Source: Prochlorococcus sp. AG-347-G20 (GTDB taxonomy: Bacteria; Cyanobacteriota; Cyanobacteriia; PCC-6307; Cyanobiaceae). Taken from it: DNA of 64,000 nucleotides. Positions within the stretch are counted from its first letter, which is position 1, and each line of letters begins with the position of its first letter. A program made the position numbers and the translations under genes. Location: positions 1 to 64,000 of the forward strand of contig QCBJ01000007.1 in NCBI GenBank assembly GCA_003281645.1, in the 5' to 3' direction. Below are positions 1 to 53,386 of this stretch, piece by piece. The notes under the pieces are model-generated. The model was not told the origin of the DNA. It made no database searches and saw only the letters and a list, made by a program, of their open reading frames with translations.

Positions 1-1656
1 GAGGGCGAACCCGGAGATAGCAAAAAATATACTTACGAAGAACTTCTAAAAGAGGTATGTAAAGCAGCTAATGCATTAAAAGCAATTGGTGTAAAAAAAG
101 GAGATTTGGTTTGTATTTATATGCCGATGATTCCTGAAGCAATGTTTGCGATGTTAGCTTGTGCAAGAATTGGCGCACCTCATTCAGTTGTCTTCGGAGG
201 ATTTTCTTCGGAAGCTTTAAAAGATAGGTTAATCGATGGAAACGCCAGATTTGTTATTACTGCTGATGGTGGCTTTAGAAAAGATAAGGTGATTGAACTT
301 AAGAAAGCAGTTGATGCGGCCATTGAAAGTGGGGCTGATAAAGTTGTTAAAAAAGTAGTTGTTGTTCAACGATCCCAAAAAAATATCTCAATGGTTGATG
401 ATAGAGATTTTTGGTGGCACGAATTATTAAAAGGTCAAAAAGATCATTGTGAACCAGAAATAATGAATAGCGAAGATAGACTTTTTATTCTTTATACTTC
501 AGGCTCTACTGGAAAGCCCAAAGGTGTAGTTCACACTACAGGTGGTTACAATCTTTGGTCCCATTTGACATTTAAATGGATTTTTGACTTAAAAGATAAC
601 GATATTTACTGGTGTACAGCTGATGTTGGTTGGATTACAGGTCATAGTTACATAATTTATGGACCTTTATCTAATGGTGCTACAACCTTAATGTATGAGG
701 GAGTGCCAAGGCCCTCAAATTTGGGGGCCTTTTGGGAAATTGTTCAAAAATATAAGGTTTCTATTTTTTATACTGCACCAACTGCAATAAGAGCATTTAT
801 GAAGTCTGGGCGTCAAATACCTGATAAATATAATTTGGAGAGTCTAAGACTTTTGGGCACAGTTGGAGAACCAATCAACCCTGAAGCATGGATGTGGTAC
901 AAGGATGTTATTGGTAGAGATAAGTGCCCTATTGTTGATACTTGGTGGCAAACAGAGACTGGTGGTGTGATGATAAGTCCCTTGCCTGGAGTCGTTGCTA
1001 CAAAGCCAGGTTCAGCTACTTTTCCTCTGCCAGGAATCGAAGTTGAAATTGTCGATAAGAATGGATATAAGGTTCAGGAGAACGAAGGTGGCTATTTAAT
1101 TATTAAGAAACCTTGGCCAGGAATGATGAGAACAATTCACGGAAACTCAGAGAGATATTTGGAGAGTTATTGGGAATATATTTCCTTTAAAGGAGAAAAA
1201 AATGTCTATTTTGCTGGAGACGGAGCACGCATTGATGAAGATGGATATATATGGATTATGGGAAGAGTTGATGATGTCATAAGTGTTTCAGGACATCGGT
1301 TAGGAACAATGGAAATAGAATCTGCTTTGGTAAGTCATAAATCAGTTGCAGAGTCTGCAGTCGTTGGCAAAAAAGATGATTTAAAAGGTGAAGTTATAGT
1401 TGCTTTTGTATCTCTAGAGAAAGACGTGAACGGTTCTTCAGAATTAATAGAGGATCTAAAGAAACATGTTATTAATGAAATTGGAATTATCGCAAAGCCT
1501 GAAAAAATTATAATTTCTGACTCTCTTCCTAAAACACGTAGTGGAAAAATTATGAGGCGAATTTTAAGATCTTTGGCTGCTGGAGAACAAATTAGCGGTG
1601 ATATAAGCACTCTTGAAGACAGTTCTGTTTTGGAAAAGCTGAAAGAATTATCTTAA
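1..1656 (+). CDS. acs: Acetyl-CoA synthetase (5' end outside window)
   Basis: AMP-forming acetyl-CoA synthetase, which activates acetate to acetyl-CoA through acetyl-AMP. The frame is open from base 1, so the gene begins upstream; 551 codons are present against about 650 in the family. The adenylate-forming P-loop [11 protein letters not shown] lies at 493-525, [10 protein letters not shown] follows near 940, and the C-terminal [11 protein letters not shown] at 1528-1560 contains the lysine that is acetylated in the family. Internal ATGs such as 106 are not the true start. The stop overlaps the convergent DUF1350 gene by four bases. Confidence 0.95.
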
Positions 1657-45070: not shown

Positions 45071-45371
45071 TTCACGAATAGATTATCCTAATAATTTATA
45101 ACAAATAAAAAATTTCGTAAAGCTAATTTTGACGGTATTTTGACGAGATAGTTGCAGGAAGATCTTTAATTTATGTAAAAGAGGATTTTATCAATTCAAT
45201 TTAAGATCAAATTTAAACCAAATTACTCTTTTATAGTTATGCCGAATCTGTGCCACTTTTCCTCATCTGATTACATGAAATAACGCGAAATCTGGTGAAA
45301 AATGATCGAAAATAATGTGCAATAAAAAAACTCCCTAAGGAGCAATTTTTATAAAAGTCATTTGTAGACAA
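45071..45371. other. Spacer between island and tRNA-Ser
   Basis: 300 bases without a gene. A frame crossing the tRNA here (45237-45452, minus) is a tRNA shadow. It holds the tRNA terminator (separate entry) and otherwise nothing I can name. Confidence 0.5.
45324..45346 (-). terminator. Terminator of tRNA-Ser
   Basis: On the minus strand a short stem (CTCC/GGAG, 45331-45342) is followed by seven T residues, 25 bases after the tRNA 3' end. Confidence 0.6.
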
Positions 45372-45458
45372 CGGAGGGGGTGGGATTCGAACCCACGGTG
45401 CCCTTGCAGACACGCTAGTTTTCAAGACTAGAGCCTTAAACCACTCGACCACCCCTCC
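45372..45458 (-). tRNA. tRNA-Ser (anticodon UGA)
   Basis: An 87-base class II tRNA. The acceptor stem GGAGGGG/CCCCTCC pairs fully, with discriminator G; the anticodon loop sits in CTAGTCTTGAAAACTAG with TGA; a long variable arm (CGTGTCTGCAAGGGCACCG) and GGTTCGAATCC T-loop follow. CCA is not encoded. A perfect TATAAT lies upstream (45491-45496, minus). Its 5' half through the anticodon arm is repeated exactly at 52065-52109, so this tRNA is the integration target of the neighbouring element and its present 5' half and promoter may be element-derived. Confidence 0.96.
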
Positions 45459-45460
45459 AG
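45416..45460. repeat. Attachment repeat, tRNA side
   Basis: A 45-base segment identical to 52065-52109. It spans the tRNA-Ser 5' half from the anticodon arm to two bases beyond the 5' end. Together the copies bound a 6.6-kb element starting with a recombinase gene. Confidence 0.9.
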
Positions 45461-45490
45461 AGGGTTATTCAGTTGTATTTGAACTTTAGA

Positions 45491-45496
45491 ATTATA
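45491..45496 (-). promoter_or_regulatory. -10 box of tRNA-Ser
   Basis: TGCTATAATTC read on the minus strand, an extended -10 with perfect TATAAT, 33 bases before the tRNA. The same 11 bases recur at 52137-52142 beside the displaced 5' half. Confidence 0.7.
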
Positions 45497-45626
45497 GCAT
45501 AAGAAGGTAGTCATAGTCTAGCAAGTCAAGTGATAGTAATAGCTTAAAAGAATTTTGAAATGAGAACATTTTTAAATTTGTTTCATAGGAGCTAAATGGC
45601 AATAACTCCTATCTAATGGTATAAAT

Positions 45627-45650
45627 AAGTCATCATTACAAGTCATCATT
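45627..45650 (+). repeat. Paired 11-base repeats, candidate recombinase arm sites (left)
   Basis: AAGTCATCATT occurs at 45627-45637 and 45640-45650 with a 13-base pitch, just before the recombinase start. A -10-like TATAAA at 45620-45625 lies beside them, so binding could also repress the recombinase gene. The same pair recurs at 51998-52021. Confidence 0.6.
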
Positions 45651-45657
45651 TTTTTAA

Positions 45658-46845
45658 GTGGCAAATTCTTCTTTTGAAACACAATTAGACGTATTAAATA
45701 AAAATCTTAAGGTAGATGGTGTTGGGAAGGTCTATATAAGTAGAAAAGCATTTTATTTGAAGGCTTATTTACCTGATAAATTTAAACCTAATTGGGACGA
45801 ACTAAAGCAAAGATGGGTAGCAACTGGATTAAAAGCTGAAAAAGCCAATATTAAACAAGTAGAAAAACTTGCAAGAAAATTACATTATGAAAGAGTCACT
45901 CAAAACTTTATTTGGGAGAACTGGTTAGCTAGTGAAGAAGAACTTAAACCAGAAAATAAAAGTTTAAAACTGTCAGATATTTATAAAAGATTTAAAGATG
46001 ATTATTTTAAAAATAAGAAAAAAACTGGAGCAACAGAAAATGGCTGGAAAGCTATTGCTCAATATCTAGCTCCAAGAAATGAGAAAAGTAAACCTGACTC
46101 AATTAAGTTAGAACACCATAAATTATTTACCGCTGATTACATTATTTCTGTTGTAGAAAAATATCCACCAGAGTCAAAAGGTAGGACAGATATGATGAAA
46201 TATTGTTTAAGGTTGGCAAAATTTGCGGATATTCCAGAGATACCAAGACTTGAAAAATACTCTGAAAAAATGGGTAAATATGAGCCTAAGAAAAGACAGA
46301 AATTAGATTTAGATTATGCAACTCAAGTTGTAGAAGAACTTAGAAGCGATAAAAGATTTGGATGGGCTATTGCCGCACTATTAACTTATGGCTGTCGTAT
46401 TAGTGAAGTCTGGTCACTATTTCCAGAGGAAGGTGGCATTGCTGAATGTGTAACTATTAATAAGTCAAAAAAGGCTTCTTTATATAGATATGCAATAGCT
46501 TTACCTCAAGAAAATATCCAAAAATTTGATCTATTTAATATTGAAAGAAACTACGAATATAAGACTCCAGAAGAATATGACGGAGAGAGAGCAAAGGCTG
46601 AAGGTTATGCTATGGCGAAGTGGTTAAGGGACTATATGAAAGATAAAAAACTAAAATTCCAGCTATATGATTTAAGGCATTTATGGGGAGTTCAATCCGC
46701 AAAAACTAATATGTCAACAGCCAATGCGGCTAGAGCTATGGGTCACTCAGTTGCCCTACATGAACAAACATATTTAGAAACTTTTGCAAAAGAAGATACC
46801 AAAGACGTTGTTAAAAGAAAGTTATTGGAGGAATTAAAAAACTAA
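45658..46845 (+). CDS. Tyrosine recombinase (integrase)
   Basis: 395 residues, starting with GTG. The N-terminal part (1-90) looks like an arm-binding domain and a SAM-like core-binding domain follows (about 100-200). The catalytic domain shows Arg247 (YGCRISE), Arg340-His341 in YDLRHLWG (Tyr in place of the usual first His), His363 (MGHSV) and the nucleophile Tyr372 (EQTYLE). It is the first gene of the element and should act on the tRNA-Ser anticodon arm. Its stop overlaps the next start by one base. Confidence 0.92.
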   Translation: MANSSFETQLDVLNKNLKVDGVGKVYISRKAFYLKAYLPDKFKPNWDELKQRWVATGLKAEKANIKQVEKLARKLHYERVTQNFIWENWLASEEELKPENKSLKLSDIYKRFKDDYFKNKKKTGATENGWKAIAQYLAPRNEKSKPDSIKLEHHKLFTADYIISVVEKYPPESKGRTDMMKYCLRLAKFADIPEIPRLEKYSEKMGKYEPKKRQKLDLDYATQVVEELRSDKRFGWAIAALLTYGCRISEVWSLFPEEGGIAECVTINKSKKASLYRYAIALPQENIQKFDLFNIERNYEYKTPEEYDGERAKAEGYAMAKWLRDYMKDKKLKFQLYDLRHLWGVQSAKTNMSTANAARAMGHSVALHEQTYLETFAKEDTKDVVKRKLLEELKN

Positions 46846-47153
46846 TGGCATACGCTGAAAAGATTGAAATTTTTGAAGGACAAAATTGGTGGCTGATAGA
46901 CAGAAAACCTTATCGTTGTTCTTCTTGCAATTCAAGAAAAATTGGAAAAGCTATTTTGGGCTATCCAACAGAAGAAGATTTTTATAACGAAGATTTATTT
47001 ATTATTGGTTGCATCCCTGACCCAACTCCAGTTCAATGCAAGTTCGGTTGTAGAGAATGTGATGCTAAGTTTTGGAAAGATACTCCAAAGATGAGAAAAC
47101 ATATAAAAGAAGTTAAGGAATATTGGGAACAACAAGAACAACAACAGCAGTAA
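46845..47153 (+). CDS. Zinc-ribbon small protein of the element
   Basis: 102 residues. CSSCNSRKIG (near 26-29) and CKFGCRECDAKFW (near 65-73) could make a Cys4 zinc ribbon; the C-terminus is a charged helix ending in a Gln run. Translationally coupled to the recombinase. It could be a recombination accessory factor or regulator; I know no family for it. Confidence 0.55.
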   Translation: MAYAEKIEIFEGQNWWLIDRKPYRCSSCNSRKIGKAILGYPTEEDFYNEDLFIIGCIPDPTPVQCKFGCRECDAKFWKDTPKMRKHIKEVKEYWEQQEQQQQ

Positions 47154-47313
47154 TAAATTAGATAACTACTAAATAGCACTATTAAGGGGACAACTCCACG
47201 ACAGCTAAGAACCCAGTAAATACAATAAGTTTGGTGTAACTCTTAGCTTTCTCAGGGCTATGGCGTAACTCAGGGGGTTTAGGTATGGAACTCCCTTTTT
47301 TCTTTTATTAATT
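47154..47313 (+). ncRNA. Possible small RNA or leader with terminator
   Basis: 160 bases without a frame, ending in a terminator-like hairpin (47273-47301). Bases 47213-47246 closely copy the inside of the following gene (47452-47486), about 30 of 35 identical on the same strand. It may be a structural RNA, an attenuator or a remnant of a partial duplication. Confidence 0.35.
47273..47301 (+). terminator. Terminator-like hairpin
   Basis: GGGGGTT at 47273-47279 pairs with AACTCCC at 47289-47295 (one G-T pair), followed by T6. It stands between the zinc-ribbon gene and the next start, only 13 bases before the latter. Confidence 0.6.
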
Positions 47314-47706
47314 ATGAGCAATTTAGATGATGTTCTTAATGGAGCATTTATTGAACAAGAACAACAAGAGACTAAATCTAAACAGATTGAGGACAGAATT
47401 AAGTCTTATGATGGAGCTTCAGCATTATTGCCATCAAGGCAATATGGGAAGCCAGTAAATCCAGAAAAGTTTGGTTTAACTCTTAGATCAATTATTGAAA
47501 GAAATGACCCACACTTAGCGGCATTTTTAGGAATCTCTACTGGTTATCACAAAAGGAAGGAAGAAGAAGAAGCGGCTCTAGAAGAAATGAAAAAATCTAT
47601 GTTGGAAAAGACTGAAGCTCTACGCCAGCGAAATATGAGTCAAAAAGAATTTAGAGAAAGAAACGTCCTTAGAGGATTAAGACCTGACGGAGGGAGGTTT
47701 TTCTAA
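47314..47706 (+). CDS. Element hypothetical protein, charged
   Basis: 130 residues, hydrophilic, with a long Glu/Lys/Arg-rich C-terminal helix (KRKEEEEAALEEMKKSMLEKTEALRQRN). Nothing recognised by family. The stop shares a base with the ATG of the next gene (TAATG). A scaffold-like or capsid-remodelling role would be pure speculation. Confidence 0.5.
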   Translation: MSNLDDVLNGAFIEQEQQETKSKQIEDRIKSYDGASALLPSRQYGKPVNPEKFGLTLRSIIERNDPHLAAFLGISTGYHKRKEEEEAALEEMKKSMLEKTEALRQRNMSQKEFRERNVLRGLRPDGGRFF

Positions 47707-47954
47707 TGGGAATCTTACACACAACAAAAGTTGGCTCAACTGAAATGGCTAAAGCTCTTGGAATATCACTAACAAGACTAAAGACACTTCAGAAGAATAA
47801 TAAATTTACTAATGGCTCTGATTACTACACTATGGCAACTGGAAAAAATGCCAGCGGCAAAAGAATAATCTGGTCTAAAGAAAGAGCCGAACAAACCTTC
47901 TTTAAAAACAAAAAAAGAAAACCAGAACCACCAAAAGTTACACGCTGGAATTAA
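47706..47954 (+). CDS. Excisionase-like HTH protein
   Basis: 82 residues. TEMAKALGISLTRLKTLQKNNKFTNGSDYYTMATGKNASGKRIIW (about 12-57) fits a MerR/AlpA-like winged helix, with a basic tail. Small proteins of this kind serve as directionality factors or repressors in integrative elements. One-base overlap with its neighbour. Confidence 0.5.
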   Translation: MGILHTTKVGSTEMAKALGISLTRLKTLQKNNKFTNGSDYYTMATGKNASGKRIIWSKERAEQTFFKNKKRKPEPPKVTRWN

Positions 47955-47956
47955 TT

Positions 47957-48319
47957 ATGGGAATTGCAAAAAATCATCCAGTTTTTAATTGGATTAAATG
48001 TCAGGGGATGTTATTTCACGACACTTTAAACAGAGTTAAAAAAGACTCTGATGAATATGCCAGGACTAAACCAAATTGGTCTGGTATTACTCCAGCTACT
48101 AAGACTTGGGCTTGGGGTCAATTAAAAGAATTAGCAAAAGACCCTTATTACGCTGGTCAAATCCAAGACAGAATAGATGAGCTAGACCTAAAGGCTTCTA
48201 ATACAAAAAGACAGTTAATGGCTAATACACAAACTTGGGAGGAAGAAATAAATAAGTGTGAAATGGAATCTGAAAAATTAAAAGAAATCATATTAAACGC
48301 AAAAAAAAACCTTGTTTGA
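47957..48319 (+). CDS. Element hypothetical protein
   Basis: 120 residues. Trp-rich centre (TKPNWSGITPATKTWAWGQLKELA) and a C-terminal helix likely to coil (DELDLKASNTKRQL onward). Unknown. Two bases after the HTH gene. Confidence 0.5.
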   Translation: MGIAKNHPVFNWIKCQGMLFHDTLNRVKKDSDEYARTKPNWSGITPATKTWAWGQLKELAKDPYYAGQIQDRIDELDLKASNTKRQLMANTQTWEEEINKCEMESEKLKEIILNAKKNLV

Positions 48320-48483
48320 TTAATGGAGATATTGTCGAGGTGGCTAACTCTATGGCATCAACTATGAAAGAATTTGCGGCTAATAACTATTGGATAAAAA
48401 TGCCAGAAATGATTGGAACTTTCGCTGTTTGTTTGTCATATACCCAAAGAGATTTAGAGCATTATTTAGATCAGGAGGACTAA
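48316..48483 (+). CDS. Possible 55-residue element protein
   Basis: An open frame from TTG 48316 (overlapping the previous stop) to TAA 48483, whose final base starts the next ATG. A GTG at 48340 and ATG at 48352 are other starts. The product contains MASTMKEFAANNYWIKMPEMIGTF and ends LEHYLDQED. Tight packing with both neighbours speaks for a real gene. Confidence 0.45.
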   Translation: MINGDIVEVANSMASTMKEFAANNYWIKMPEMIGTFAVCLSYTQRDLEHYLDQED

Positions 48484-48845
48484 TGCCAAGAACTACTAGA
48501 AAAGAAAGAGAAGATCGGAGACGATACGCACTAGAGATTGTAAGCAACGGATATGGGTGGGGGGACGCTACCAAAATCATTGAAAACACTTACAAAGTCA
48601 GCAGAAGAACCGCAATAAGGGACGTTGATATAGCCTTTGAAGGAATAGTCCAGAGCTTAGAAAAGTCCGATATTAAAGCCTTAATGGGCTGGATTACGTT
48701 AGGAGTTCAAAGGAACATTATGAAGGCTGAACAACAAAATAATCACGGTGCAGTTATTTCGGGTTATCGGTTACTTTTTGATATGCTTATCAAGCCAAAA
48801 GAGCATGATGGTAAGAGAACTTGGCGTAATTACAGAGGGGTTTAA
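48483..48845 (+). CDS. Terminase-small-subunit-like HTH protein
   Basis: 120 residues from the ATG at 48483, preceded by AGGAGG, the strongest ribosome site in the region. A basic HTH region (ALEIVSNGYGWGDATKIIENTYKVSRRTAIRDVDIAFE) is followed by VQRNIMKAEQQNNHGAVISGYRLLFDMLIKP, which recalls the C-terminal helices of phage terminase small subunits. This would let a satellite redirect helper packaging. It might instead be an ordinary HTH regulator; I judge the two about equal. Confidence 0.45.
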   Translation: MPRTTRKEREDRRRYALEIVSNGYGWGDATKIIENTYKVSRRTAIRDVDIAFEGIVQSLEKSDIKALMGWITLGVQRNIMKAEQQNNHGAVISGYRLLFDMLIKPKEHDGKRTWRNYRGV

Positions 48846-48997
48846 GCGTCTCAGAGGGTCTTGGACTGATACTGGACGAAAAACACAACTAAAACACACT
48901 TTCCAACGAAAGAATGAGACTCCAAAAGCTAGTCATACCAATAGGCTAGTCTCAAAACCGCTTAGTAGTACTGTGTACGACACAACTCTCTCTATAT

Positions 48998-49075
48998 ATG
49001 TGTAAAAGTCTTATTTATATAGACTATAACTAAGTTTTTAGTATGTAAAAGTATGTGTAAAAGGTTATGTAAAAG
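48998..49075 (+). repeat. Iteron-like array
   Basis: Four copies of TATGT(GT)AAAAG, at about 48998-49008, 49042-49051, 49052-49063 and 49066-49075, all in one direction and alternating with and without GT. Such direct repeats near a primase-helicase operon suggest a replication origin. A phage-type regulator could bind them instead. Confidence 0.6.
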
Positions 49076-49123
49076 TTACTTAAACATAAAAACACACTTT
49101 TTCCGCTGATATTCAATAAAAAT

Positions 49124-49143
49124 CGGTTTGAACCGCCTATAAT
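49124..49143 (+). promoter_or_regulatory. Palindromic operator and -10 box
   Basis: CGGTTTGAACCG (49124-49135) is a perfect 12-base palindrome two bases before TATAAT (49138-49143). Binding there would block the promoter; one of the element HTH proteins is a natural candidate. Confidence 0.55.
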
Positions 49144-49152
49144 ATGGGTGTT

Positions 49153-49335
49153 ATGGATATTTGGACTAAACGTCACATCCGAAATTATTTATCTGACCCT
49201 TCAGAAGCGAACGATAGTAAATATTCAAAGTATTACCAGAGAATTAGAAGAGCTATTAGAAAAGAAGATGAAAAAACTAAGGCTCAAAACGGAACTATTG
49301 ATTGGGGTTATATGCTTTGGAACTTAGATTGGTAA
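49153..49335 (+). CDS. Small element protein, possibly leaderless
   Basis: 60 residues from the ATG at 49153 (MDIWTKRHIRNYL), basic, no known family. An upstream in-frame ATG at 49144 abuts the -10 box and would lie before the expected transcription start, so 49153 is preferred and the mRNA may be leaderless. It stops exactly before the convergent primase gene. Confidence 0.5.
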   Translation: MDIWTKRHIRNYLSDPSEANDSKYSKYYQRIRRAIRKEDEKTKAQNGTIDWGYMLWNLDW

Positions 49336-51261
49336 TTATTTAGCTTTATATAGATAAGGTCTCCTTCCACCTGTAGTTAATGTTGTGGCATTAATCCTTT
49401 TTATTTCTCCCCTTCCATTTAACTGAGCCAATATATTCCCAGCCCAATTAGCATTATTTAGTTCGCAAGCTACACTAACTTGTTTTGGAGAAAAGGCTTC
49501 AGTTGGATTATTTAATAGGAACTGTTTTACCCTTTTAGTTTTGTTATTAATCTCATCCAGAGATATTGTTCTTGAGCCAAGAGCTTCAAAATAAAATCTA
49601 AAATCTTCACTATTTCCCGAAAACTCATAAATTTCATTTTCTTCAACTATTGTTGATCTAGCTTTAAGATTCTTCAGTAACCAACTATATTCTGAGCTAC
49701 CTTCTTCCTTCTTTCTATAGAGTGTGTAAACGTCCGAGCAACCATTAAAAATAAACTTTGACCCATATATATCATCAACACTTGGGACTCTCTGAGCTTG
49801 CCTTTTGGGGTCTCTGTTTAAGTGATGAACTAACACTATTGATACATCATATTTAGATGCAATCTTGTTCAATCTATAAATCAACAATCCAAACTCCGCT
49901 GAACAAATATCAGCAAATCCTCCAGCTATTTTTATTAATGAATCAAGAACAATAACTTTTAATTTATAGGTAACAATCCAAGTTATTAGCTCTGGAATCA
50001 TCAATGGATGAAAGTGCCATTTAATGCGGAAACAATTAGGGTCAGGAGCAAAACCCATTCTCCTAAACTTTGCTTTTGCGTTAGCAAGTGGCTCATCAAG
50101 TTGGACTATTAGAGTGTTAGCTTTTCTTGTTTGGAATTGCCCTGCAAACTTAGCTCCATTCGATACAGCTTCTAATAATTGATAACTAAATGAACTCTTG
50201 CCGCTATATCCATCCCCAACAAGCATTGTTAAACCAACAGCAAGTAGATCATCAATTACTGGAGTTAAACCAGTATCGGAAGCCATTATTGCTTCTAAAG
50301 TTTCTGGCTCTTCAGATTCTTTGAAATTGATAAGAGTATTGACTAGAGTTTCAAATTGATTGGGTTTTAACTTCAATTCATTTTTAAGAGTCTCCATTGC
50401 AAAGGCTCTTTCAATAATTGGTAACTTATCAACTTTAGATAGCCCAGCATCTAATCTTTCTTTAAGAGATCGAGCATCTTTAATAAAATTATCGGGAGTT
50501 ATATCTTGTTCTAGTTGTTTAAAAATATCTGTTTTAGTAGCTCCAGAAGCAAGCCAATCCGCAATATCTATTCCACCTGAAGCTGGAGGTGTAGCCCAGT
50601 TGTGATGATCTGGGAAGGGACGAATAATCTTACATCCTTCATAATTTCTTGTAACTTCATTGGCATATTTAATCCCAACATCATCCAAATCTGGAACTAC
50701 TACAACTTTATTCGCTGGAAATAATTTACTATCTCTTTCTGGATAAAATTTACTTCCTCCAATAGTAGAAATTGCTGGTAAATCTATTCTCCATAATGCG
50801 TCACAACATTGTTCGCCTTCTACCCAGTAAACATATTCATGCCCTTCTTCTAAAGCTCTTTGAGCTTCTTTATATCTATAAGGAACTACAACTTTTTGAA
50901 ATTCACTTGGTCTCTTTCCAGAGATCATTGACTCTTGCCTTATTGATTTAGTTCCGTCTCCATTGTCAGTTCTTATTACTTTAATTAATTCAAAATCTTC
51001 CTTATTTTTATAAATATATTCAGTTACTTTTTTTGGTTTATTTAGTTTTGCTGGAGATACAGTTTCCCTAATTAAACGCTTACCTTCTTCAGTTTGTGAG
51101 CAACTACAACCCCAAGCAAACCACCTTCCAGTTTTTTTATTTACTTTAAAGTTTTTAGCTTTGCATACTGGGCAAAAGTAACTTACGTCTCCATTAGACC
51201 CTTCCTTCCCACCATCAAGAGTGAGTTTTTGCGTATGGTTACGCATTTCAAATTTTGACAT
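49336..51261 (-). CDS. Primase-helicase (Zn ribbon, TOPRIM, RecA-like ATPase)
   Basis: 641 residues. A zinc ribbon at 30-54 (CPVC, CSCS), a TOPRIM domain with WVEGEQCCDAL near 145 and VVVPDLDDVG near 190, a RecA/RepA-like ATPase with Walker A GDGYSGKSS near 345, Walker B VIVLDSLIK near 440 and VLVHHLN, and a C-terminal winged helix. It should start and unwind the element's DNA at the origin. This type is common in phage satellites and integrative elements. It follows the HTH gene by six bases. Confidence 0.88.
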   Translation of the reverse strand: MSKFEMRNHTQKLTLDGGKEGSNGDVSYFCPVCKAKNFKVNKKTGRWFAWGCSCSQTEEGKRLIRETVSPAKLNKPKKVTEYIYKNKEDFELIKVIRTDNGDGTKSIRQESMISGKRPSEFQKVVVPYRYKEAQRALEEGHEYVYWVEGEQCCDALWRIDLPAISTIGGSKFYPERDSKLFPANKVVVVPDLDDVGIKYANEVTRNYEGCKIIRPFPDHHNWATPPASGGIDIADWLASGATKTDIFKQLEQDITPDNFIKDARSLKERLDAGLSKVDKLPIIERAFAMETLKNELKLKPNQFETLVNTLINFKESEEPETLEAIMASDTGLTPVIDDLLAVGLTMLVGDGYSGKSSFSYQLLEAVSNGAKFAGQFQTRKANTLIVQLDEPLANAKAKFRRMGFAPDPNCFRIKWHFHPLMIPELITWIVTYKLKVIVLDSLIKIAGGFADICSAEFGLLIYRLNKIASKYDVSIVLVHHLNRDPKRQAQRVPSVDDIYGSKFIFNGCSDVYTLYRKKEEGSSEYSWLLKNLKARSTIVEENEIYEFSGNSEDFRFYFEALGSRTISLDEINNKTKRVKQFLLNNPTEAFSPKQVSVACELNNANWAGNILAQLNGRGEIKRINATTLTTGGRRPYLYKAK

Positions 51262-51267
51262 TATTAA

Positions 51268-51705
51268 TTACTTTTTTATGTGGACGGGCATCTTAGTTTT
51301 TAAATCTTCTATCGCATTAATTCGGTGGTAAAAATAATCAGTTCTTTGATTTCTTTTTACTACTCTGATGGACTCTTTTCTAAAGACTCCTTCATAACGA
51401 TATTTCGCAATAGTTTTAGTTGAAACTCCTAATAACTTTGCAAGAACACTTGGCTTTAAATATAGATTTGCAATTTGATTTGCATTTTCCATATACCAAA
51501 GAAAATCAGCCCGAAGCTGGTCTATCTCTAAACCTAATCTTGATTGATTAGAAGATAAATTTGCTATATCCTTCCGCAATGCGGACGCATTGGAATCGTA
51601 CACTTTAAGACCCAAAATATATTGTTTCCCAACTCCTAAAATCCTACTTTTATACTGTTTAAATCTCTCAGGATGTAAGCACCTTTCTCTGAGAAACCAA
51701 TCCAT
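51268..51705 (-). CDS. HTH protein upstream of primase
   Basis: 145 residues. A helical N-terminus (SALRKDIANLSSNQSRLGLEIDQLRADFLWYM) precedes an excisionase/MerR-like HTH at about 92-112 (LAKLLGVSTKTIAKYRYEGVFRKES). As first gene of the primase operon it may be repressor or replication initiator. Confidence 0.6.
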   Translation of the reverse strand: MDWFLRERCLHPERFKQYKSRILGVGKQYILGLKVYDSNASALRKDIANLSSNQSRLGLEIDQLRADFLWYMENANQIANLYLKPSVLAKLLGVSTKTIAKYRYEGVFRKESIRVVKRNQRTDYFYHRINAIEDLKTKMPVHIKK

Positions 51706-51958
51706 CTTTCAGGATTAACAAGACCCTATTTAGTTCTCGCTGGAGGTGCTAGGGCTGTCTGTTTCAGTCTTTCCCTGTTGGGGTGTTCATGGTGATTTCA
51801 ACCTTCAACAACTACTCATTACCAACATAGACTCGCAAGCTAACTTGACCTTAAAAAGGGCAGAGGTCAAAAGACTATTTTCTAGGAAATTACCGAAGTA
51901 ATTGACTATATTATTATCTAAGTTTGAATAGTATTCAACCCCCAATTAGTGGAGAAAG

Positions 51959-51984
51959 TACGCTAGTTTTCGAGACTAGATCCC
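51959..51984 (-). repeat. tRNA-Ser anticodon-arm fragment
   Basis: About 22 of 26 bases match the anticodon arm of the neighbouring tRNA-Ser. The anticodon would read CGA instead of UGA. It has no acceptor or T arm and is no tRNA gene. Confidence 0.6.
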
Positions 51985-51997
51985 TAATCGTTACAAA

Positions 51998-52021
51998 AAG
52001 TCATCATTCTGAGTCAACATT
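51998..52021 (+). repeat. Paired 11-base repeats, candidate recombinase arm sites (right)
   Basis: AAGTCATCATT at 51998-52008 and GAGTCAACATT at 52011-52021, again with 13-base pitch, 43 bases inside the att repeat. They match the pair at 45627-45650. Confidence 0.6.
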
Positions 52022-52064
52022 TAAAATATATATCCAAAAACCTAGTTATAACTTAATTCTAAAA

Positions 52065-52109
52065 TAGTTTTCAAGACTAGAGCCTTAAACCACTCGACCA
52101 CCCCTCCAG
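52065..52109. repeat. Attachment repeat, distal (displaced tRNA 5' half)
   Basis: 45 bases identical to 45416-45460. It keeps a TATAAT (52137-52142, minus) at the same relative place as the functional tRNA promoter, so it may still be transcribed as a half tRNA. Confidence 0.88.
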
Positions 52110-52388
52110 GATTAAATATTTAGTTTTAACTTTTGAATTATAGCAGTATTGAGTTACAGAAAGGTTTTCTAATTTAATAGATATTTAAAAATAAAAATAT
52201 GTGGTTTGATTTTTTTTAATAGGTCTAGTTCTATTGTTTTTCAAAGCCTTGGAGGTGATTTCACTTAATTAAAATCAAATGTCAAATTATAACTTTTTGC
52301 AGCGCGAATAGTAAGCGTTGCATTTTTAATATAAGACCAAATTTGTTGGCGCAAAATTTTTATAATTATTTGATTTTTAATAGATTCT
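52110..52388. other. Spacer beyond distal repeat
   Basis: 280 bases, AT-rich. Apart from the -10-like box at 52137-52142 I see no gene, hairpin or repeat. Likely part of a decayed earlier insertion. Confidence 0.4.
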
Positions 52389-52949
52389 TCACCAGAAATC
52401 GTCATGTTTACAAGAACCAACTTTTGTCATCTTCCCTTCTCTAAACTCACCAACACAACTACCTCCTTCTGCGTAGAAGTATTTACCTTGCCCATGTCTT
52501 TTTGAGTTTTTAAATTGTCCAACATATTTAGTTCCATCTGGCCAAGAAAAAGTTCCATATCCTTCTCTATCACCATTTTTAAAATCTCCAACATAAGTAT
52601 TTCCACTAGGATAGAAATATATCCCATTGCCAGTTCTTTCCCCATTTATAAATTGTCCAACATATTTATCTCCAATATCCCAGTACATAGTTCCAAAACC
52701 ATGACCATACTTTTTCCCATTTGATTTTTCCCCAATATAGAGTGAATTTGCAAACTTAATTTCAACAGTACATTTAGTGTTTAGAGAAGAATTACATTTA
52801 GGTAAAGCCAATGTCTCAGTATATGACTCTAAACAACCTTCGTAGTCATTAACACTCATACATATTTCACTAATTTGTGGATCTATATTTGCATTAACAG
52901 CAGCAGGTAAAGAAAAAGTAGTCATTAATGCTATTAAAAATTTCTTCAT
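52389..52949 (-). CDS. Exported MORN-repeat protein
   Basis: 186 residues. A signal peptide (about 1-20, LIALMTTFSLPAAVNA) and a Cys-containing region precede four to five MORN repeats from about 80 on (KYGHGFGTMYWDIGDKYVGQF, ERTGNGIYFYPSGNTYVGDF and so on). MORN units form beta-hairpins that bind lipids or proteins. It is probably extracytoplasmic. It sits between the second and third tRNA 5'-half copies, so it may be cargo of an older element. Confidence 0.78.
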   Translation of the reverse strand: MKKFLIALMTTFSLPAAVNANIDPQISEICMSVNDYEGCLESYTETLALPKCNSSLNTKCTVEIKFANSLYIGEKSNGKKYGHGFGTMYWDIGDKYVGQFINGERTGNGIYFYPSGNTYVGDFKNGDREGYGTFSWPDGTKYVGQFKNSKRHGQGKYFYAEGGSCVGEFREGKMTKVGSCKHDDFW

Positions 52950-53386
52950 TAAATAAGGTTAAATTCGCTTGATTTTATCAAATGAGTATAAATTTATTAT
53001 ATTTTAACCGTCTCCATGTCTTATCCATGTCTAAATAGGGGTATCATATTCTTATTATCTTTATTATAGGATCTGATTTATATCAACTGATTACATATAG
53101 TTTATAAATTTACTTTTTTCCTGAAAAAATAGTTTTTAAATACTAGAGCCTTAAATCACTCGACCATCCCTCCAGCGGGTTATTCAGTTTTATTCAACTT
53201 AAAGACTACAAGATAAGAAATTAGTTAAAGTCTATTAATTCAAAGATTTAAAAATTATTTCAAGAAACTAGTTTGAAATGGGAATTTTTATTAATAATGA
53301 TGAGTTGAGTCTTTGTAAAAGTATATTATTAGTCAAATTTAATCCGCAAAATGAGTTCACAAAAATCTAGTTTGCCACGAAAGAAA
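52950..53386. other. Spacer with decayed tRNA fragment
   Basis: About 440 bases, no gene. It contains the third tRNA-Ser 5'-half copy at 53130-53175, whose flank (53174-53290) is similar to 45459-45575 beside the intact tRNA. Confidence 0.5.
53130..53175 (-). repeat. Decayed third copy of tRNA-Ser 5' half
   Basis: 46 bases aligned to the att repeat with a few substitutions and one inserted base in the anticodon region. The promoter box is lost. Marks an old integration boundary. Confidence 0.75.

Follow-up and report, generated by a model that had tools for sequence, protein, structure and literature searches.

The question raised by this locus is what function is served by the pairs of 11-base direct repeats that lie near both ends of a mobile element of Prochlorococcus sp. 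AG-347-G20. The DNA analysed (GenBank assembly GCA_003281645.1, contig QCBJ01000007.1, positions 1 to 64,000 of the forward strand; the whole stretch is called the window below) carries this element at 45415-52080, inserted in a tRNA-Ser(UGA) gene of a Prochlorococcus-like host. A preliminary description of the window proposed that the repeats are placed as are the arm-type sites of lambda-like tyrosine recombinases. The work presented here supports that proposal and indicates that the pairs are very probably binding sites of this type for the element's own tyrosine integrase. This reading draws on the rarity of the pair elsewhere, on the presence of corresponding pairs in place in related elements, on the co-variation of left and right ends, and on the association of the left pair with the N-terminal domain (N-domain) of the integrase; positions, fixed spacing, co-variation and association are all directly observed.

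In the window, the left pair consists of two exact copies of AAGTCATCATT on the + strand (45627..45637 and 45640..45650). At the right end, one exact copy of AAGTCATCATT (51998..52008, +) is followed by a degenerate one, GAGTCAACATT, with 2 mismatches (52011..52021, +). Consequently, the claim of four identical 11-mers holds for the units at 45627, 45640 and 51998 but not for that at 52011, while the common pitch of 13 and the common orientation of the two pairs are borne out even when the degenerate copy is included. The left core (45415..45431, no strand assigned), which was located by att comparison and whose role is putative, is the palindrome CTAGT-TTTCAAG-ACTAG; as read from the sequence, its 7-bp centre is the anticodon loop and its 5-bp arms are the anticodon stem of tRNA-Ser. 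Measured between starts, the left pair is 212 bp from this core (45415); the right pair begins 66 bp ahead of the right core (52064), and its end is 42 bp from it. To these values the distances first proposed (170-210 and about 45 bp) are a reasonable approximation. This arrangement has the sequence features of a lambda-like system, in which a bivalent tyrosine integrase, Int, is served by arm sites, P and P', that flank the core of attP: the arm-type repeats, whose binding is putative here, likewise lie to either side of the core and inside the element. The sequences, numbers and spacing of the sites differ from those of lambda.

A single 11-mer is only weakly informative, since with up to 1 mismatch it has 8 matches in the window against 3.2 expected, a number reached by 3 of 100 shuffles. 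The exact 11-mer occurs 7 times in the 1.457 Mb of the genome, 4 of these outside the element, and its reversed control occurs 3 times. When the complete 25-base pair is searched with up to 3 mismatches, exactly two places are found genome-wide, which are the two ends of the element, and the controls give 0. Thus the concern that the motif might be common elsewhere applies to the single 11-mer but not to the pair, which is unique to the element in its own genome. Among 266 genomes of the genus, AGTCATC-N6-AGTCATC has 4 matches in 3 genomes (reversed controls, 0): the left end in the window, a left and a right end in genome G225 (loci L041 and L069), and a pair in G229 that lies 66 bp before a core which appears decayed by eye and which a core scan allowing up to 12 mismatches does not call. 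In the same 266 genomes, AGGCCAC pairs have 15 matches in 12 genomes, all 15 at the ends of tRNA-Ser elements, and again the reversed controls give 0. In a scan that assumes no motif, run against Markov shuffles, the left pair in the window (10/10) is equalled by 0 of 40 shuffles and the right pair (9/10) by 0 of 60.

Far from being absent from related elements, the pair is found there in the same place, with a sequence that differs by class. An integrase search matched 220 of the 266 genomes, and 32 places among the matches listed were fetched with their flanks; many proteins of 389 residues, ~24-27% identical and occurring in most genomes, were left out. A tRNA-Ser core lies beside the integrase in 30 of the 32 places (an intact tRNA in 29 and a displaced copy in L069); the remaining two, L055 and L072, fail the core search. 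These 30 together with the window make 31 integrase loci, and in every one of them a direct-repeat pair precedes the integrase. The distance from the start of the pair to the core is class-specific, being 212 bp in 19 loci, 194 bp in 10 and 205 bp in 2; an element in G077, found later via its arms, also has its left pair at 212 bp. The repeat is AAGTCATC in class A, TAGGCCAC in class B, TAGTCCAC in class C (with which L045, carrying AAGTCCAC, is placed), AAGGCCAC in class D, TTCGGAAC/TTCGGAAAC in class E, and GGGGAACAT in class F, and L063 has substitutions in both units. The pitch is 13 or 14 in classes A-D and 11 in E and F, and class E has an additional pair within the integrase reading frame. 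A 46-bp stretch ending 7 bp before the arms shows only 30-65% identity per 23-bp block when A, B, L045 and C/D are compared, with zero net bases gained or lost, and in L045 the pair is still 212 bp from the core despite another open reading frame (ORF) between the pair and int.

Three further features were seen in the related loci. Several GACAT-like repeats ~10 bp apart stand just before the class E left arms in L060-L064 and L067-L071; a directionality factor or a regulator could bind them. In L055 (~1320-1520, reverse strand), an integrase relative is joined to the 3' half of a tRNA-Ser that lacks its 5' half, and two tandem repeat pairs that differ from each other lie upstream; the arrangement may represent a split tRNA or an assembly artefact. 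In L066 (G185:C15), the core is at the same coordinate on both contig strands, and the locus looks like an inverted duplication or an amplification chimera.

At the right ends, the recurring feature is the position of the pair. A census found the tRNA 5'-half sequence in 191 of the 266 genomes, many of which have two to four copies, and 30 genomes with at least two copies were searched again; the fetched regions yielded 79 distinct displaced ends, after removal of identical segments and of ends with less than 116 bases upstream. For the motif-free scan, ends more than 80% identical to a representative were dropped, which reduced 82 right ends to 45 and 84 left ends to 63. The best pair lies at -65 to -71 in 22 of the 45 right-end representatives and at -121 to -127 in 11, the right pairs being situated ~66-67 bp (or 120-124 bp) from the right core. 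(It should be noted that these 33 right ends fall in 14 of the 150 bp scanned with bins chosen after seeing the result, and that in one of the 33, L097, the pair looks unrelated.) The correspondence between ends was then scored by comparing the left pair of 34 complete elements with all right ends, 23 of 57 loci having been dropped because their ends were no more than 400 bp apart (the 165-168-bp relics in most cases) or because their sequence windows were incomplete. The sum of own-end scores is 1210, compared with a permuted mean of 1019 (standard deviation 29), and 0 of 20,000 permutations reach it. Six elements score 0 because no pair passed at one end, and for four of these a 'rank 1' is meaningless. 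With a shared motif taken as a score of at least 41 and both pairs at the usual positions, our reading is that one motif is present at both ends in 21 of the 34 complete elements, the window included.

Comparison of the integrase sequences indicates that in natural recombinants the left-arm sequence goes with the N-domain (~ residues 1-88) and not with the catalytic part. An N-domain called D, 92-100% identical among L047-49, L056, L057 and L059, is borne by integrases that fall in two backbones, whose remaining two domains are only 60-66% shared: backbone 1 in L047-49 and backbone 2 in L056, L057 and L059. N-domain C occurs with backbone 1 in L050-54 and with backbone 2 in L058, and is 85-99% identical among the four compared (L050, L053, L054 and L058); C and D N-domains are 55-56% identical to each other. 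Regardless of backbone, N-domain D is accompanied by left arms of sequence AAGGCCACC, and N-domain C by TAGTCCACC. The G077 element is a further case of D with backbone 1 and has three D repeats, and L046, whose arms are TAGTCCACGC, has an N-domain 62-66% identical to both C and D. Right arms could be read for one combination per class: L057 (D with backbone 2) has D arms, and L054 (C with backbone 1) has C arms. Within the N-domain, a Q/Y residue tracks one arm base in classes A-D, VTIQ being found with AGGCC and VTIY, TVYI or VYI with AGTC; given few independent changes, this correspondence would be only a lead.

The integrase of the element (45658..46845, +) is a divergent tyrosine integrase of 395 residues with a GTG start, which matches PHROG 1 (integrase) at E=0.001. 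Residues R247, K269, R340, H363 and Y372 are invariant in nine aligned integrase members, and we take them to be the catalytic Arg, Lys, Arg, His and Tyr of tyrosine recombinases; Tyr stands here at the position of the first box-II His (YDLRH). PF00589 matches six of the nine members (best 8.6e-5) and NF007370, a tyrosine-type invertase model, matches four (best 0.0011). A profile search of solved structures gives weak matches only (4a8e, E=0.012; 6emz and 6en0, 'Int protein', E=0.64). The one named relative comes from uncultured Prochlorococcus AG-422-G21 (best segment, 83%), and no relatives were detected in viral contigs, by single protein or by alignment of members.

A number of observations weigh against the assignment of the pairs to the integrase. 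The window integrase reaches no Pfam integrase model, no arm-binding domain of Pfam gave a match, and AlphaFold, run on this integrase and that of L003, gave a model (predicted local distance difference test score, pLDDT, 41) too poor for showing an arm-binding fold. Since the left arms adjoin the coding region of the N-domain, linkage alone could make the two travel together, and the right ends of D with backbone 1 and of C with backbone 2 were not found in the fetched stretches, several contigs ending first. Many single pairs are not distinct from shuffles on their own, and 11 of the 34 complete elements have no shared pair. In two of the 34 the ends clearly disagree (L046, C left and G right; L061, E left and C right). 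These two may be composites of two elements, because tandem arrangements exist: in L069, a class E integrase comes after a class A right end. Where elements have no integrase adjacent to them, the left distance is inexact, being ~186 rather than 194 bp in L119 and L120, and 210 rather than 212 bp in L082. Finally, the elements are related, so the counts above are not independent events.

An alternative is that the pairs are sites of a recombination directionality factor, an Xis-like helix-turn-helix (HTH) protein, rather than of the integrase. The pitch of 11-14 bp is near one helical turn, and direct repeats one turn apart are the form of such sites in the part of PMC7498355 that bears on them. 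In addition, the element encodes an HTH protein that is a candidate directionality factor (51268..51705, -), with a match to HTH_17 (E=0.0059) and a weak one to the excisionase family PHROG 7735 (E=0.00054). Against this explanation, which we consider improbable, the left-arm sequence of natural recombinants follows the N-domain of the integrase, and pairs are present at both ends with near-fixed spacing to the cores. Replication iterons were set aside as well; the pairs persist at element ends that have no replication gene beside them.

The repeats might also have no part in recombination and be nothing but operators for a transcription repressor, of int on the left and of a different gene on the right. 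The left pair does abut a -10-like hexamer in classes A-D, as would suit an operator, but both pairs are kept in elements that have no integrase at the left end, the distances to the core recur at the right ends, and the L045 pair keeps its 212 bp though it is separated from int by another ORF; a purely regulatory function is thus very unlikely. Still further down the scale is chance or simple shared ancestry of short, functionless, AT-rich repeats. It can appeal to the frequency of the single 11-mer at 1 mismatch and to the many single pairs that are within the shuffle range, but it has to accommodate exact-pair searches of 266 genomes that match element ends only, with empty reversed controls, a left-right coherence not attained in 20,000 permutations, and repeats whose sequence changes while their spacing stays constant. 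We give this explanation almost no weight.

If the pairs are arm-type sites, as we favour, the left one would have a second consequence. In the 19 class A-D loci the first repeat follows a -10-like hexamer (e.g. TATAAA, TATATT, TAGAAT, TAGTAT or TACAAT) at a distance of 0-1 bp, and transcription of int should consequently start within the pair. The suggestion that the left pair overlaps the int promoter is therefore consistent with classes A-D, but classes E and F have no such clear hexamer before their arms; in addition, a sigma-70 scan called no int promoter in the window, which counts against such an overlap. Both the position of the left pair, which abuts the hexamer, and the precedent of KplE1 intS make autorepression of the integrase via this pair likely. 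In KplE1 of E. coli, which shares with the present element insertion in a tRNA gene and an integrase gene adjoining attL, the int promoter overlaps attL with its arm-type sites, near the -10 box, and IntS represses this promoter (Panis et al. 2010, PMC2951348, in the portion describing intS regulation); here the corresponding arrangement is predicted from sequence. In the same portion of that paper, control of this type is suggested for the majority of tRNA-associated integrases. Less favourable to our reading, it also reports that single arm-site mutations, P'1 excepted, leave repression unrelieved (PMC2951348). KplE1 differs in its insertion at the 3' end of argW and in its directionality factor, TorI (PMC2951348), and the present element differs in carrying the promoter region of tRNA-Ser together with its 5' half and in having arms that are tandem pairs, whose binding is predicted.

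These considerations suggest the following mechanism. The C-terminal part of the integrase would act at the anticodon-stem/loop core of tRNA-Ser(UGA), with TTTCAAG as the presumed 7-bp overlap, and the N-domain would bind the paired repeats at both ends, bridging arms to cores in the integration and excision complexes. Integrase bound to the left pair, and hence over the region where the int promoter starts transcription, should also repress int. With one tRNA core common to many element classes, it is probably the arm sequence, as read by the N-domain, that decides which integrase is paired with which element. This would include cargo elements that have no adjacent integrase gene, which a matching integrase could mobilise in trans. 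As a kind, the system is a known one, a tyrosine integrase that has arm-type sites and probably represses its own gene. It is unusual in how clearly the two ends co-vary, in its rigid spacing, in the natural recombinants of its integrase domains, and in a second core-like site.

This second site, called core2, was absent from the preliminary description. In the window it is the palindrome CTAGT-TTTCGAG-ACTAG (51963..51979, no strand assigned), 101 bp before the right core, and its 7-bp centre is one base off the target TTTCAAG. A CTAGT-N7-ACTAG palindrome with 9 or 10 of the 10 stem bases is present inside 13 of the 45 right-end representatives, a count that leaves out four matches that are the tRNA itself in 165-168-bp relics, and in 10 of the 13 it lies 101-105 bp before the core. 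The centre differs from TTTCAAG in 12 of the 13, and short class G elements are, by eye, mostly without core2. The exception, L087 (G078), has the 3' half of the tRNA joined to the right side of a core2-type site, followed by class E arms and a displaced 5' half; ARAGORN finds no tRNA at this junction, and an intact copy is elsewhere on the contig. This arrangement fits a putative recombination of the tRNA core with core2, an event that would be rare or accidental since the exact junction pattern occurs in 1 of the 266 genomes. Our best guess is that core2 is a second integrase-binding site. A more ambitious and rather doubtful picture is that of an arm address code laid over one anticodon-loop core, in which swappable N-domains would recognise arm pairs specific to each class and rigid in position, and matching cargo could be mobilised. 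In this picture core2, ~35-38 bp from the right arms and with an altered overlap, would join the complex and now and then recombine, G078 being the example, with its tRNA gene split by a 105-bp scar.

Both pairs are also kept in elements without an integrase beside the left end (L076, L082, L102, L119, L120 and the ~1-kb class G elements); for the larger of these, the absence is established beside the left end only. Class G arms (GGTCTC, GGTCCC) are present at both ends of elements of ~0.8-1.25 kb, which is hardly the length of an integrase gene (L083, L092, L095, L098, L099, L111, L114, L125 and L129), and such elements are possibly cassettes mobilised in trans. L076 (2736-6426, -), which has class G arms, encodes a periplasmic binding protein and two branched-chain-type permeases (PF13433, PF02653), a nutrient-transport cargo. 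In 28 loci (L067, L073, L075, L078, L079, L081, L088-L091, L094, L097, L099-L101, L104, L111-L113, L115, L117, L118, L122, L123, L126, L132, L136 and L137) a displaced tRNA core lies 165-168 bp from the previous core. These relics mostly have class E-like arms at ~-67 and are possibly what is left of an ancient element, retained in a clade.

The target tRNA-Ser (UGA) gene (45371..45459, -; ARAGORN and att comparison) has its 5' half and its promoter region on the element side, and the sequence therefore indicates that the inserted element provides both. On that side, a putative promoter of the tRNA gene with extended -10-like and -35-like sequences (45491..45520, -) scores 10/12 in a consensus scan and has TG before the -10; one such site against 1.2 expected is weak alone, and the block is 70-91% identical between classes A-D. 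Downstream of the integrase are small ORFs of unassigned function on the + strand (46845..49335, comprising 46845-47153, 47314-47706, 47706-47954, 47957-48319, 48483-48845 and 49144-49335), followed by a primase-helicase-like protein (49336..51261, -; AAA_25, PHROG 239) and the HTH protein considered above. The right core with the displaced tRNA-Ser 5' half (attR) is at 52064..52108 (no strand assigned; att comparison). Directly behind the element is a probable decayed second element of ~1.07 kb (52102..53170, no strand assigned), placed in class G by eye on the strength of similarity at both ends, which contains a MORN-repeat gene (52389-52949, -) and its own decayed displaced tRNA fragment at 53130; its position points to tandem stacking of elements.

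Bordered by a tRNA, carrying a tyrosine recombinase and resident in Prochlorococcus, the element at 45415-52080 falls within the definition of a tycheposon given in the relevant part of PMC10872708, where tycheposons are cargo elements of the same organism group. The arm sequences offer a concrete, testable grammar by which different cargo islands could use the same tRNA insertion site in a photosynthetic bacterium of great abundance and yet keep their recombinases apart. Integrases that have recombined naturally between classes C and D are ready material for finding the residues that read the arms, and the grammar helps to mark the ends of elements in fragmentary single-cell genomes, including small elements that have no integrase at their end.

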